Shown: piece by piece, positions 25,101 to 34,228 of the stretch
Numbering within the stretch: the stretch's first letter is position 1
Layout: the number at the start of each line of letters is the position of its first letter
Source of the DNA: Galaxea fascicularis
Lineage: Eukaryota > Cnidaria > Anthozoa > Scleractinia > Euphylliidae
Reading direction: 5' to 3'
NCBI GenBank assembly: GCA_948470475.1
Contig: OX419344.1
Location: 25,367,225 to 25,431,224, forward strand
Length of the DNA stretch: 64,000 bases
Translations under genes and position numbers: made by a program
Notes under the pieces: model-generated
Seen by the model: only the letters and a program-made list of their open reading frames with translations
Database searches by the model: none
Told to the model about the DNA's origin: nothing

Positions 25101-26022
25101 TGCCATGTTTTGTTGTTTTCAGATGAGCGAGAGCATCCATCTTGTCGGTGACGGGAGTAGAATTAAAAATCCAAGTAATGTTCTTTCTTCTTTTACGCTA
25201 GGTTTCCAATAATGTCTTTCGGTATTCTGAGACAAGTGCTTTCCATCTGTAAGAACTGGCTGACCACTAGTATGATATATGCACCCAGTTGGAATAACAG
25301 GTTTTTCAATTTCTTTGAAAACGGTGGACATGATTTTCAGAGTAAGCAGCCGCCATTTTGAGCTGTATGTTCAGCCAGCCGATCAAAATAACGAAATCCA
25401 TTTCCAAATAGTCCATGCTTCCCAGCTAATTATTATCACAAATGGAAGGTGCCCAGAACTTTGGGTGATAGGTGGGTGTTTCGCCAGGTTGTTCGCGTTT
25501 TCTTCTGAAACAAAGCCTTACGTTTCTAAATATATTATTCAGTGTGCATAGGCCGAGGCCCCTGTTCTCTAAGCGTGAATTGGGTATCAACCTGGCCCTA
25601 GTCTCCTACGCCAAGTTAAATAACAAGGAAGCTAACGAAATTATACGGTTTCGTTACTAGGTTCCCACCGAATATCTAACTGGAACTTGAGGCACAAAGA
25701 AGGCAATATCTCGTATCACGGTTCAGCTGGAGTCATAGAAGTCAAGAGGACTGGGTACTACTTCATATACAGTCAAATGTATTACTATGATGGTACTTCT
25801 CAACAAATGGGTCACTATACGTACATCAATCATGACAAGGTTCTGGAAAGTATGGGGAGCGTTATAAGTGCCTCTAAGAAATACAACACCAAGTATCATG
25901 GCGGGGTTTTCTTGCTTCGGGAAGGCGACACTATCTCGGTTCGCATTCCATACACCAAGAATTACTACATGGATAGTGAGGGAAGCTTTTTTGGTACGTT
26001 TTTGCTCCATCTGATGACTTAA
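19147..26022 (+). CDS. TNF-3: EDA-like collagenous TNF-superfamily ligand, 355 aa with proximal THD exon
   Basis: Eight exons: 19147-19431, 19584-19656, 21816-21842, 22359-22457, 23965-24099, 25009-25043, 25123-25174, 25661-26022. Signal anchor about residues 15-38, furin-type R-N-K-R at 106-109 followed by Y-C-P-C, 33 uninterrupted Gly-X-Y triplets (120-218, the longest collagen here), then the THD with [29 protein letters not shown] and F-F-G-T-F-L-L. These align well with ectodysplasin A. Exon 3 is strongly basic (G-R-R-G-K-K-G-K-R) and could end at an alternative gtaaac donor 9 bases earlier. Two Met codons start the frame; either fits. A second THD exon lies downstream (26837-27228). Much of the last exon is nearly identical to TNF-4. 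Confidence 0.9.
23310..23605 (-). mobile_element. tRNA-derived SINE in TNF-3 intron 4
   Basis: Read on the minus strand it begins with an A box tggccgagtggttaa (23578-23592) and a B box gggttcaaatccc (23538-23550), followed by about 190 bases of body and an AT-rich tail (plus-strand aataaataaaataaataaat near 23320-23343). The head resembles a tRNA-Ser/Leu-type gene, but the long body and tail show it is a retroposed SINE. Confidence 0.7.
24536..24692. repeat. Near-perfect 69-bp inverted repeat (long hairpin) in TNF-3 intron 5
   Basis: The arms at about 24536-24605 and 24623-24692 are reverse complements with one substitution and one extra base, separated by about 17 bases. Transcribed as part of the TNF-3 intron it would fold into a long, almost perfect stem. 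It could be a recent foldback element or a source of small RNAs; no flanking duplication is obvious. Confidence 0.8.
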
Positions 26023-26836: not shown

Positions 26837-27228
26837 TATCTAAACGCACAGTGAAGAACTGGGAAGTACAGCACAAATCAGGCGGACTTCAGTACAGCGA
26901 TGGGACCGTTCAAATACAAATAGCTGGATTTTACTATGTGTATTCCCAGATGTTTTATCATGACGGATCAGCATATCAGATGACACACCAGCTGTATGTT
27001 AATTCTCGCAAATTTATGCAGAGCACGTCTGCTGTTGTTAGCAAAGAAAGAATGTACAGCACTAATTATAACGGCGGTGTAGTGTTTTTGAACGCGACGG
27101 ATAATATATCTGTGAGAACGCCCTTTTCAAGGTTTTATCAAATGGATCCAAGTTACAGCTATTTTGGTGCTTTCTTGCTTCATTCCGTCACGCAAAACAC
27201 TTCCACGTCCAAAAGACTCCAAGATTGA
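26837..27228 (+). CDS. TNF-3b: second, distal THD exon (alternative last exon)
   Basis: An intact THD exon preceded by a good acceptor (tttgttttcacgcag) in phase 1, the phase needed to join to TNF-3 exon 7 (ends 25174). Joining gives an in-frame 365-aa protein that shares the anchor, furin site, collagen and strand A with TNF-3. It has Y-Y-V-Y-S-Q-M-F-Y, N-Y-N-G-G-V-V-F-L and Y-F-G-A-F-L-L-H, then a longer tail ending in Leu-Gln-Asp. Its sequence differs clearly from the proximal THD, so the two would present different receptor-binding faces. No other upstream exons of its own were found in the 0.8 kb gap. The alternative is a partial gene duplicate that is never spliced, but the open frame and conserved core argue against decay. 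Confidence 0.75.
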
Positions 27229-28916: not shown

Positions 28917-31686
28917 ATGGAAAAGAAACAAACACAACCTGGGACTCAGCTACTTCCAGTTCTATTATGTTGTTTGATGTTAGCCTGCTCAGGGATATTG
29001 TTCGGTGTCTACACGCACAGAGAAATCTCCTGGTTAAAGATACAAATCCGTGAGCATCAGAAGGTCATAGAGGCCTTGCAGAACGGAAACGATGCGCGAA
29101 CTGCCCAGGTAAAGGAGCTTATTTATTCTTATAGGCTTCTTCGCAGAGTCATTGCAACCACTGCAGTTTAAATTATTGGTGATACAACAGATAGTCTTTA
29201 ACTTGTTGACAAAACTCCATGAATTTCCCAGGGGTCAGAGACGGAGCGAATTCGAAGAAACGTCGACGGATCTTGCACTTGCGTGGGTAAGTGTCTTAGA
29301 GCTAAATACAAGTTGCAGTGATTGCAAGCGAAATCGTGAACCTATCCACATCAGAACAACTTACACACCACGATCAAAATCAGAGGACACAAACAAGCCT
29401 AAACAAGGCTGGGAATGGAGCCGGAATGGACCCGTCTGGGAACAAGGACTGGACAAGGGGTGTTGCATTCATTCCTAAAGCGCGTCACTCGGGTATTTTT
29501 TTCTTAACCGAACCTTCTTCTTTTTATATTGAAGCCGTGATTTTGCTGGCTCCACAGATTGTTTCTCTGACACAATTCTTATTTCTAAAGGCCTAGGTAA
29601 CGAGTACATCCTTTCGGTCAACTAAATATGGATAATTAATTGACCCTTGGGACAGAAAAGTTTGAAATGCGAAACCTCAGGTTGTACGTCTCAGTTAAAT
29701 CACAGTTCATACATCCAGTGTTTCAATTTTAACTATTCCTACTCAGAAGTACCCTGAGAGCTTACATAAAGTAGCCATTTCCATCCTACCGCATTTCTAA
29801 CCCACTTCTCCACTCACCTCAGCATTTTACTTTACCGGCAGGAGCGCCAGGGAGACAAGGAAGGCGGGGAAGAACGGGAAAACTTGGCCGCCCTGGCCCC
29901 CCTGGATCACGTGGTGTCCCAGGTGATGTTAATGTTTCTTGGAACTGGCAACTCAAAACTCCTCTGTACCACATTCCAACTGATTGGACAAGAATTTTTG
30001 AAGGAATTAAGAGAGCAAAAACGGGATCCGATATTTTTCGTTAAATGCAAAAGAGAAAAAGAATAATCAAGAGAATTCTAAAATGGAAAGGGAATTGACA
30101 ATCCACTGCTGGAGCATCCTGTTTGTTTCATGATCTCATATGATTAATAACAACTAAGACTTAATTGCGTCGTGTTGTTTGATTGGCTTTATCTTCGCAA
30201 TCATTCCCATTCATTTCAGGTTCTCCAGGACCTACTGGTTATCCTGGCTTAAAAGGACCGCAAGGGCCGCCGGGTATTAAAGGAGATCGTGGAATAAGTG
30301 GCCCGCAGGGACCGAAGGGAATTCCAGGTCAGATATAATCAGTTTATTGATAAGCTTTGTTACACGTGGCATTTCCTTGCGCAAAACGAAAACAGGTAAG
30401 CCCTGCCTCGTGACAGTAGACGAGTGGAAAGCCAAGACAACTACTTCGTGAAAAATATCTGCAAATCCTGACAAGGAATGAAAAAGCTTGTCTCGGTTTC
30501 TATTTATACATATTTTTGTCACGAAGTTAATCCCAAGAGCACGATGGCTCATTGAGGGGATTTACTTCGAAAGTTACTTACATCTATTAAGGGGTAGAGG
30601 AAACAAAACAATAATATGACTAAATTTTCGATTTCTATACCTCCTTCAAAAACTAAGGTTTAGAAAACATTCATTCGTGGTTCCAAGTATACAGACATTT
30701 TGTTTGTAGCAAGTTCAAAGTTGACACTAACTTTAAAATTAAGAATTTGGAATAACTGAATGAATGAATGTATGATGCTAAAACCAAATGAATAGAGACA
30801 CTTCCTGCAACCCTCAAATACTTAAGACTTTAAATGTAAACATTTTTTCTTTCAAATAGGACCACGTGGCTTTTCTGGATCTGCGGTAAGCACTGATATC
30901 GCTGAACAACATCAACTTTCTCTTAACCTTTAGTTGACATTGGCCACGATAACGAGTTGAAAATATATTTTTAACTTTCAGAGTCTTGAAAGCATTCATC
31001 TAGTTGGTGATGGAACAAGACTAAAGCATTGTAAGAAAATTGTCAATATCCCAGCCGACCGTTTTCATTGACAAACGGAGGGGGTGGTGGTGTTGGGTGA
31101 TCAGTTTCCCTTAGCTTGTCATTCCAAACCATTTTAACCCTTTTTTTAGTTTTTGTCCTGTCATAATCACACTGATAGATCAAGCGAGTGAATTATGATA
31201 CCCCAACATCAAATTGTTCAAGGATTCATAGGATTTACTTCTCTCAGAATTATTGAAAGACTTTTTTCACTCTTGTCATTAAGACCCTCAAATTCATTTA
31301 TAGCTCCCTCACACCCTATATCCAATTGGGCGTTGAGGCATCTAAAAGGCCGTATCTTGTACCACAAATCTACTGGACTAATTGAGGTCAAGACGACTGG
31401 GTACTACTTCATATACAGTCAAATGTATTACTTTGATGGTACTTCTCAACAAATGGGTCACTCTACGTACATCAATCATGCCAAGGTTCTGGAAAGTATG
31501 GGGAGCGTTATAAGTGCCTCTAAAAAATACAACACCAAGTATCATGGCGGAGTTTTCTTACTTCGAGAAAGGGACACTATCTCGGTTCGCATTCCATACG
31601 CCAAGAATTACTACATGGATAGTGAGGGAAGCTTTTTTGGAGCCTTTTCTCTTGGTTTTCCCGGAATACAAGGTAATAACTTATGA
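28917..31686 (+). CDS. TNF-4: EDA-like collagenous TNF-superfamily ligand, 297 aa with first THD cassette
   Basis: Seven exons: 28917-29108, 29232-29286, 29842-29922, 30220-30327, 30860-30885, 30982-31030, 31304-31686. Short tail, signal anchor about residues 11-31, furin-type R-I-R-R at 70-73, then C-T-C, 24 uninterrupted Gly-X-Y triplets (83-154) and a THD. I chose the Met at 28917 over an upstream in-frame Met (28842) because an acceptor lies between them and the other genes have a short polar N-terminus. The last exon is odd. Instead of the usual L-L-H-P stop, F-F-G-A-F runs into S-L-G-F-P-G-I-Q and meets a phase-1 donor (gtaata, from 31673) just before the TGA, so it can be spliced onward to the second cassette at 32776-33994. 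Read to the TGA it gives a 297-aa protein. Confidence 0.88.
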
Positions 31687-31746
31687 TTTACAGAAGATAC
31701 AGTGTTTACTAAGAATGTGACGAAATTAAGATGAAGGGACAAACTG

Positions 31747-31785
31747 ATAATAATAATAATAATAATAACAATAATAATAACCTAT
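31747..31785 (+). repeat. (AAT)n microsatellite
   Basis: A tract of ataataata units with one interruption, inside the interval between the TNF-4 cassettes. A second (AAT)n tract of about ten units lies at about 32094-32123. Confidence 0.85.
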
Positions 31786-32092
31786 GAGGCGCTAATGACA
31801 TAGTACACAATTAGTTCGTAGCAGGTATTATTTGATAGATAATTTATTCTATTTATTTTACGCAATTTTATTCCTATCTAACGTAACTTTGTAAATTTTG
31901 ACATAATACTGGCTACGTTTACACGCCCAATATTTGTGATTTGGACCTGGCATTCCGGAGTTTTCAAACTGCCATAATAATATGTTATTGTTCAACGATA
32001 TCGAAAAGTTGTATGCATGGATACTTTTTAGCATGAACCGCGGAATTTTATTATTGTTATTATACTAAGTGTTTCACAGTCATTAAAACTGG

Positions 32093-32124
<32 letters not shown>

Positions 32125-32775
32125 TGCAACATTATTTCCGTGTCAAAGTATTTAGCTATGCCAGTAAGCTAATTGGGGAAACCTATCGACTTAAACACGA
32201 ATCTAAAATACCAAAACGTTCTACACAGTGGGTGAATATGAAAGTAAACTATTATTTAAAGAAAAAAAAACATTATGACTATGTACAATACATGGTACTA
32301 AGTCTACAAGTATGCAATATTCACAAGTTGCAAGGCCTGCTGCAATTACTGTTGTTGTCTATAAGGCTCGAAAGGTCTACATTTTGTATTTGCGCCTTGA
32401 ACGCGTTGAGGCTTGGCGATGTCCTGAGTTACTGAGTTTCGATCAAATAAACCGCGAAGGGGATCGAAGGGGATCGAGCCCAAGACCTCGTACAGTGGCA
32501 CCGGTTGAATGTCACCACGCTAATGGGAGGCTGGTGGCAAACTAGGTCATCTATGAAACTGATATATATGTAGCATGCGTAACGCATGTAGCTAGGATTG
32601 TTAATATCGAATGCGTTCCGACTATGTAGGCCAGGTCCCAGCGGTCAGGGTATGATGCTTGCCTTACTTCTCAACTCGACGATAGTGGTTCTGATGACTT
32701 TAGTGGTTGATGATGATGCTGATTACCTTACTGATAACGATGATTTTTATTCTTGCTTGTCTGTTTATATTTCAG

Positions 32776-33994
32776 AACAGGGAGTAAAACCACCGCCAAC
32801 ACCGGTAAGAGTTCTGCTCTTAAGTGCACGAGACCAACATTCTTGGTTCAGATATTTAGTTTACAGTCGGAAGTGGTATTGCAACTTGGTGCTTTATCAC
32901 ACAGGGTTGCACACCTGCCTAACAGGAAGGTACATTCTACGAGAACGCATCCGTGGTTTAACTAATGACAACTAAACTAAGCCACTTGAATTTCTTCGTT
33001 TAGGTCGCAGAAAGCATTCACCTAACCGGGGATGGTACAAGCCTCAGTAATCCCTGTAAGCAAATCTACATTTTTTTTCTAATTATCAGTTACAAAGGGA
33101 CTCAAGTTTGACCTTAAAGTGCACCTAACCCCAAAATATTTGCACCTGTTCGAAACGCATTGCACCTTTTTTTTTTTTTTTTTTAACAAATCCTGATTTT
33201 GTATAGGCTTTAAGACTTCCGAAAAACTCGGTATGATTTGGTCACTACCGAGTCAGACGGGGCGTGGGTCTATTCCTGAGTTGACGTCACAAACTGCTTT
33301 GCATGCATGTTGACATGTGATGCAAATGAGTTTTGGACGCCAACTCAGACATACGACCCACGCCCCTTTTGACTCGATCATGCTTAGTATTTCGTAAGTT
33401 TTAAAGCCTATACAAAGCCAAGATTTGATAAACAAAAGGGAACAACAGACGCTTTGCGTTTCGAACAAGTGTAAGATTTATTTTAGCGAAAACATTTTTT
33501 GGGGTTAGGTGCACTTTAAGCGCACACAGGGTTTTACTACTAATCAACGAGCCCGACGAGCAGATGCAGCCGTTATGATTGTTAAGCAATTGTAAAAATA
33601 TACAAAGAAAATTTCATTTCATATTCTATCTCAATTCACAGTTCACGTGCTCATAACTAACTGGATTATTAGTCACAAGCTGGGCTCCATACAGTTTGAA
33701 AGGGGTGTTATTAGAGTCACCAAAGCCGGCCACTACTTCATATACAGCCAAATGTACTACTTTGATTCCCGCGTTCGAGTAATGGCTCACCACACATACA
33801 TCAACGATGGAAAGGTCATGGAAAGTGTAGGAAGCTCTGTGGCTTCCAGCGCAAAGCGCAACACAAAGTACCATGGCGGAGTGTTTCTCCTGCGGGCTAA
33901 TGACACCATTTCTGTTCGCATACCGTTCATCAGGCATTACAGCATGAAAACAAATGCCAGCTTCTTTGGAGCGTTTTTGCTGTATCCGGTGTAG
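32776..33994 (+). CDS. TNF-4b: second C-terminal cassette (linker, strand-A and THD exons)
   Basis: Three exons: 32776-32804 (29 nt, phase 1 to 0, E-Q-G-V-K-P-P-P-T-P, a degenerate counterpart of the 26-nt collagen linker exon), 33004-33055 (52 nt, V-A-E-S-I-H-L-T-G) and 33642-33994 (THD with [24 protein letters not shown]). The set duplicates the last three exons of TNF-4. No anchor, furin or collagen exon precedes it. It fits in frame in two ways: after TNF-4 exon 4 in place of the first cassette (289 aa), or after the phase-1 donor at the end of the first THD (437 aa with two THDs). Which is used cannot be decided from sequence. All motifs are intact, so a decaying copy is unlikely. Confidence 0.8.
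33113..33520. mobile_element. MITE with about 25-bp TIRs in the TNF-4b intron
   Basis: The left end cttaaagtgcacctaacccc is matched by its reverse complement ending at 33520. The total is 408 bases, with an internal palindromic zone around 33230-33380. No transposase. Confidence 0.8.
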
Positions 33995-34222
33995 TCAGAC
34001 TTCATTACACTGTACTGAGGGATAAACAGCGGCTTAAATTGCACAGAAACTGTATTACAGAGTAGTTCAATACTAGTCTTAGCGAGAAAACCGTGTCGAC
34101 ATTCTATATAGATGAAAAGCAACGGGACTATTTTCTTGTTGTACCGGCAAAAAGAGACAAGTCCCTAACCAATATATTTTCACATTGACTCTTATTGTAT
34201 ATGAAATTCATATTATATCATA

Positions 34223-34228
34223 AATAAA
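34223..34228 (+). terminator. Candidate poly(A) signal after TNF-4b
   Basis: AATAAA 229 bases past the TNF-4b stop. After the first-cassette stop (31686) the nearest AATAAA I saw is at 32446-32451, 760 bases on. Confidence 0.5.

Follow-up and report, generated by a model that had tools for sequence, protein, structure and literature searches.

A likely two-headed TNF ligand gene in the stony coral Galaxea fascicularis

TNF ligands signal through receptor clustering, and the number and kind of heads that a ligand carries sets what clusters. To our knowledge, the usual rule within the TNF ligand superfamily is one head per chain. In the passages of a Mercenaria survey, exactly one TNF domain is given for 75 of 76 TNF genes, the 76th not being described there (PMC8905726); the wording 'two TNF domains', as used in the passages of another report, denotes neighbouring subunits (PMC8024323); and the term 'THDs' does not occur in the passages of a tunicate TNF paper (PMC12843592). 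No two-headed TNF ligand appeared among the titles and abstract beginnings returned by a literature search, and a search for TNF or ectodysplasin in Stylophora found nothing. Within the C1q family, natural chains of this kind are described for CTRP4 (C1QTNF4; passages of PMC10206021), which is two-headed, and for the multi-headed HcC1qDC6 (abstract of PMC5519582), which together cover chains with two or three C1q heads.

The gene considered here, TNF-4, lies in a stretch of 64 kb (the window; bases 25367225-25431224) within a 26-Mb contig of the Galaxea fascicularis genome (416.6 Mb in 170 contigs). Sequence comparison indicates that it is likely a natural two-headed TNF ligand gene, in an arrangement common to a gene model of Stylophora pistillata, P0001. 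An initial annotation of the window had presented such a chain as a striking departure from the rule of one head; the predicted 437-aa chain and the P0001 model each contain two heads, and such a departure would be tempered by the multi-headed C1q relatives.

Exon plan and splice signals of TNF-4

At least 13 TNF head exons occur genome-wide, seven of them inside the window, and there is no N anywhere in the window. The TNF genes of the window have their matches among stony-coral proteins, and the head cores of two Logan-derived proteins, P0011 and P0014, are identical to those of TNF-2 and TNF-5. In TNF-4 (Table 1), the translation of exon 1 includes a hydrophobic segment, judged by eye to be a putative type II membrane anchor, and the stalk exon contains RIRR/N, which we take to be a furin-like site. 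The duplication of a cassette of linker, strand-A and head exons, noted in the initial annotation, is borne out by our reading of exons, phases and translations, as is an in-frame phase-1 donor at 31672/31673 that fits the acceptor before 32776; the lengths predicted there were likewise reproduced, at 437 aa with both heads, 289 aa with cassette 1 skipped and 297 aa with the stop at 31686. Cassette 1 both begins and ends in phase 1, and this symmetry means that either keeping or skipping it preserves the frame. Searching the 437-aa chain against Pfam returned two stretches of PF00229 (TNF; 87.3 bits, cut-off 23) and a collagen match, PF01391 (53.6 bits, cut-off 27.2), between the putative membrane segment and the head; TNF and collagen were the sole matches at E up to 0.01, with C1q not among them.

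Table 1. Features of TNF-4, in window positions
Feature	Position	Strand	Basis or remark
Exon 1: start Met and hydrophobic segment	28917..29108	+	sequence, translation; membrane role by eye
Stalk exon, furin-like RIRR/N	29232..29286	+	translation
Collagen (Gly-X-Y) exon	29842..29922	+	translation; Pfam collagen in chain
Second collagen exon, ends in phase 1	30220..30327	+	translation, Pfam
Cassette 1 linker exon, phase 1 to 0	30860..30885	+	sequence
Cassette 1 strand-A exon, phase 0 to 1	30982..31030	+	sequence
Head-1 exon, phase 1-1; 8-residue tail SLGFPGIQ after FFGAF, donor G/gtaata	31304..31672	+	translation, alignment, fold model
Read-through GNNL-stop if donor unused; first G codon begins at 31672	31673..31686	+	translation
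Putative inter-head intron	31673..32775	+	ATTAAA at 32082, AATAAA at 32446
Cassette 2 linker exon EQGVKPPPTP, phase 1-0	32776..32804	+	sequence
Cassette 2 strand-A exon, phase 0-1; GDGTSLSNP common to Stylophora head 2	33004..33055	+	translation
Head-2 exon with stop, phase 1-stop	33642..33994	+	translation, tree
AATAAA, 229 bases past head-2 stop	34223..34228	+	sequence

The end of head 1 reads FFGAF-SLGFPGIQ-G/gtaataac and, if left unspliced, continues as G-N-N-L to the stop at 31686. Among the 13 head exons found, a phase-1 G/GT located 5-12 residues past the end motif occurs in TNF-4 head 1 only; the other 12 have no such G/GT and run into a stop codon 2 to 20 residues on. Donor scores come from a matrix built on 14 donors, whose positions were set by alignment of P0011 and P0014 with TNF-2 and TNF-5. 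The head-1 donor, AAG/GTAATA, scores 6.45 and ranks 10th among the 265 GTs in 28917-33999, with the 14 matrix donors, each left out in turn, scoring 0.7-10.9 and eight other TNF-4 donors, assigned by eye, scoring 2.8-8.9. Because 133 of the 3702 GTs in the whole window score at least as high, this value proves nothing alone. For the acceptor before 32776 the score is 7.4, against -2.8 to 12.4 for the reference acceptors, and 85 of 3795 AGs score as high.

A candidate Gly-X-Y run extending unbroken from the tail across the splice into linker-2 was rejected, in that the junction codon GAA (Glu) breaks the register. The head-1 tail still contains G-F-P-G-I-Q. A scan of the three plus-strand frames of the inter-head intron for a hidden collagen exon yielded no GxyGxyG stretch.

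Two candidate 3' signals lie past the head-1 stop, an ATTAAA at +396 bases (32082) and an AATAAA at +760 (32446). The position of this ATTAAA counts against joining of the two heads; that an AATAAA is found 229 bases past the head-2 stop, and one only 760 bases past the head-1 stop, counts for it. Left unspliced, head 1 would terminate 12 residues beyond the motif, compared with 17 and 20 residues for two stop-type heads in the cluster; this normal-looking end also counts against a two-headed product.

When modelled alone, the head-1 exon forms a confident TNF head (mean pLDDT 81.3). In this model (all of our structure predictions are monomer models), residue 116 of 121 is where the final strand closes, and pLDDT is down to 38 at the last residue, which gives the tail the character of a linker. 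The head also shares 132 of 136 bases with head 1 of TNF-3 (25765-25900), the upstream flanks and tails being different, a pattern that suggests a gene conversion between the two heads that left the tail alone. The values of dN (0.085) and dS (0.306) between them suggest constraint on one or both.

Tailed heads and two-headed models in other corals

We retrieved 119 related proteins, eight of which are without an FFGAF-type end motif, and the rest supplied 113 heads: in 49 a His follows at two or three residues from the motif, 12 are of the head-2 type (LLYS/LLYP), 30 are tailed and 22 are others. The tail spans eight residues in 27 of the tailed heads and seven in three, and is followed by a glycine; since the pattern by which this class was picked demanded a glycine in a range, the glycine itself is no evidence. 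After it, 26 of the 30 have K, N or E, under a pattern that allowed K, N, E, L, M or I. As judged from protein letters in the relatives, with donor DNA read at the tail in the window, the fixed tail position and the K/N/E are the imprint expected of a phase-1 donor, GT(A/G)A, that has been read through. Past the tail, the reading frames of the relatives diverge in length and sequence, and some close relatives are alike for a stretch; neighbouring introns can stay alike for a stretch between close relatives. A motif-less Desmophyllum protein outside these counts, P0018, permits in its +1 frame FGAFLLG, five residues and G, followed by a stop, which is compatible with the same tail.

Taking the same printed contig size in the result tables as a proxy for contig identity, six of the 16 tailed heads on contigs of more than 50 kb share a contig with a head 2 (P0001 counted) and ten do not; in some species, tailed heads may thus have other downstream partners, or the head 2 may be hidden in 90% clusters. 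By the same proxy, all five head-2 clusters on contigs of more than 50 kb (three contigs, P0001 apart) share a contig with a tailed head, and the six on contigs under 10 kb have no tailed head on the same contig. Searches by tblastn of genome contigs (34 pattern matches) and viral contigs (27) found no relative.

In a head tree with few columns, many open forks and a bootstrap that had not settled, head 2 forms one clade (support 100/100) of 13 of the 108 rows, whose members are the window head 2, the Stylophora head 2 and head-2 exons from other sources. Omitted from this tree were the distant P0027-P0031 and P0117-P0119, five further proteins without the motif (P0018, P0025, P0077, P0092 and P0096) and seven short tailed rows (P0042, P0047, P0089, P0106, P0110, P0114 and P0116). 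A single clade of tailed heads was considered and is not supported: the tree needs seven changes, at least two of which are forced by starred branches.

The protein P0001 is a predicted 282-aa 'ectodysplasin-A-like isoform X1' of S. pistillata, a model without a stalk that begins inside head 1 and continues through the tail and a collagen-like linker to head 2. Both of its heads align with those of the window, with 62% identity over 277 columns. Its head-1 tail, LLGDLAPR-G, has the same length as other tails, and its head-2 strand A, GDGTSLSNP, is specific to head 2 and is also present in cassette 2 of the window. The words 'isoform X1' in its name suggest several transcripts. A C1q match to P0001 reaches 22.4 bits, below the cut-off of 23.7. 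The fold model has two beta-rich domains and a disordered linker, with a mean pLDDT of 67.1 that falls under 50 in the linker; this low confidence probably arises from the aligned single heads falling on head 2 in both alignments, and we therefore use the model solely for the presence of two beta-rich domains. Among its top six fold matches, five (4zch twice, 5hkj, 5hzf and 4dou) have several heads in a single chain, with TM-scores of 0.45-0.48.

No other two-headed protein of the P0001 kind was found among candidates of about 240-765, 115-365 and 416-1323 aa. A Montipora foliosa protein, P0002, has two TNF heads in one model with a second hydrophobic segment between them, and from its sequence looks like two neighbouring TNF genes joined in one gene model. 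That gene models can fuse neighbouring TNF genes in this way counts against a two-headed TNF-4. In one protein search, eight of 31 rows were Logan-only proteins with collagen and TNF, each single-headed; because none of the Logan rows retrieved is near-identical to any isoform of TNF-4, their silence does not separate the possible readings of the locus.

Alternative readings of the locus

In our judgement TNF-4 is quite probably a TNF ligand gene of the EDA-like type with a collagen stalk, organised mainly to encode two different heads on each chain. The comparison with P0001, the tail-plus-donor pattern in 30 relatives and the head-2 clade make this reading likely, and they support the earlier suggestion that the gene could give a double-THD ligand. 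Also in its favour are the G/GT placed as in no other of the 13 head exons found, the linker-like tail and the signs of constraint. Counting against it, ten of the 16 tailed heads on contigs of more than 50 kb have no head 2 by the contig proxy, the tailed heads do not group as one clade, and P0001 is the sole two-headed protein of its kind among those retrieved. The head-1 exon would then be internal, with its short tail and phase-1 donor splicing to linker-2, strand A-2 and head-2, and the 437-aa chain would consist of the stalk, head 1, a Pro-rich linker of about 18 residues and head 2. For G. fascicularis itself, we infer the use of the 31672-32776 junction.

An unlikely alternative, though the strongest of three, is that the heads are mutually exclusive, the stalk at 30327 being joined to cassette 1, with an end at 31686, or else to cassette 2, but never to both. 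A splice from 30327 to 32776 would be in frame, with all junctions in phase 1, and the ATTAAA at 32082 or the AATAAA at 32446 could end a head-1 transcript; but this model makes a donor-like pattern on tailed heads unnecessary, and the two heads are joined in P0001. The neighbouring TNF-3, in which a single strand-A exon is followed by two head exons and the first of these closes with a stop, speaks for such a switch; that its head 1 is without the tail or the G/GT speaks against it.

It is highly improbable that head 2 is a separate small gene, reading from its own ATG at 32652 (MMLALLLNSTIVVLMTLVV...) into linker-2 to give a 185-aa secreted or anchored protein with a single head. Although the frame is open across the acceptor and the start is hydrophobic, by eye this stretch resembles the repetitive end of an intron before a good acceptor, and the matching part of P0001 is collagen-like and continuous with head 1. 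Least probable of all is a decayed or assembly-made fusion of two genes that is not expressed in two-headed form: head 1 looks partly overwritten by TNF-3 (the 132/136 bases at 25765-25900), but the frames are intact with signs of constraint, the 26-Mb contig has no N in the window, and the same arrangement is present in the Stylophora model.

Assembly, significance and comparison with known systems

If TNF-4 is two-headed, its chains could associate in threes, the first heads making up one trimer and the second heads another, or they could tie neighbouring trimers into a larger assembly. A single molecule could then offer two surfaces for receptor binding, and a ligand with head 2 alone could arise where cassette 1 is skipped. 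In TNF structures the two termini of a head are both found at its base; head 2 would therefore be placed next to or beneath head 1, or else take part in the trimer of another molecule. A broader proposal, for which we see the case as evenly balanced, is that two-headed TNF ligands are an old natural class maintained in many stony corals, each chain having a pair of diverged heads and a Pro-rich or collagen-like spacer, whose double trimers or branched networks could bring two receptor types together, and in which skipping of cassette 1 would switch between two- and one-headed forms.

Such a ligand would occur in animals with large TNF-receptor repertoires (Acropora digitifera has 40 TNFRSF genes, as cited in passages of PMC12843592). 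A natural chain with two different heads would, if real, be an evolved counterpart of the designed single-chain multi-head TNF proteins, and would open receptor co-clustering by one ligand to direct testing.

Among known systems, EDA has an anchor, a furin-like site, a collagen stalk and a TNF head, in that order. The predicted TNF-4 chain follows the same order, with its hydrophobic segment in the place of the anchor, and differs in that it would carry two different heads per chain rather than one. EDA (PDB 1rj7, 1rj8) is also the best sequence match after 4zch for both window heads, and EDA-A2 is the best PDB fold match of the head-1 model. The Stylophora P0001 shares with TNF-4 the succession of head 1, linker and head 2, the clade of head 2 and the position of the tail, whereas its collagen-like linker between the heads is longer and its model is without a stalk or membrane segment. 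Montipora P0002 also has two TNF heads in one model, but is set apart by its intervening hydrophobic segment. The single-chain APRIL-BAFF-BAFF (PDB 4zch), which scores highest in the sequence comparison of both window heads and in the fold comparison of the P0001 model, likewise has several TNF heads in one polypeptide; it is, however, titled a single-chain human heterotrimer, which we read as engineered, and its head placement is a poor match (TM-score 0.45-0.48 on the query). By analogy, the nearest natural parallel to a two-headed TNF-4 is CTRP4, although it and HcC1qDC6 carry C1q heads where TNF-4 carries TNF heads.

Paired head exons in TNF-3

In the neighbouring gene TNF-3, a single strand-A exon precedes two head exons and would join each in phase 1, the second through an acceptor set by eye. 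The first head exon is closed by a stop codon, and from the sequence the two are likely to be alternative last exons, given that same placement of the second acceptor. In the tree of 108 TNF heads, the second head lies on a long branch (1.57) and has no close relative.

Coordinates of the features discussed
Feature	Position	Basis
TNF-3 head exon 1	25661-26022	sequence
TNF-3 head exon 2	26837-27228	sequence; acceptor placed by eye
Compared stretch, TNF-3 head 1	25765-26002	
Compared stretch, TNF-4 head 1	31411-31648	
Open frame before TNF-4 head 2	32652-32804	
Inverted repeat	33106-33527	
Second head-exon pair (L001, L009)	G000:C10:5087469-5090205, minus strand	

Similarity of the first heads of TNF-3 and TNF-4

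Because these heads are nearly identical (225 of 238 bases over the compared stretch, and 132/136 across 25765-25900) whereas their immediate upstream flanks are much less so (76/102), gene conversion between them is likely.

Surroundings of TNF-4 head 2 and other paired heads

An open frame, hydrophobic at its start, runs unbroken across the acceptor into linker-2, the exon opening the second TNF-4 cassette. An extended inverted repeat with about 70% identity lies in the intron 5' of head 2; it also resembles 1421-1589 and is perhaps a mobile-element relic.

Two further TNF head exons on the same contig form another, divergent pair, spaced about 2 kb apart and each ending in a stop. In Montipora foliosa, two TNF units are joined in one 591-aa database model (P0002), which has a second hydrophobic segment mid-chain and probably represents either a read-through transcript or an annotation error.
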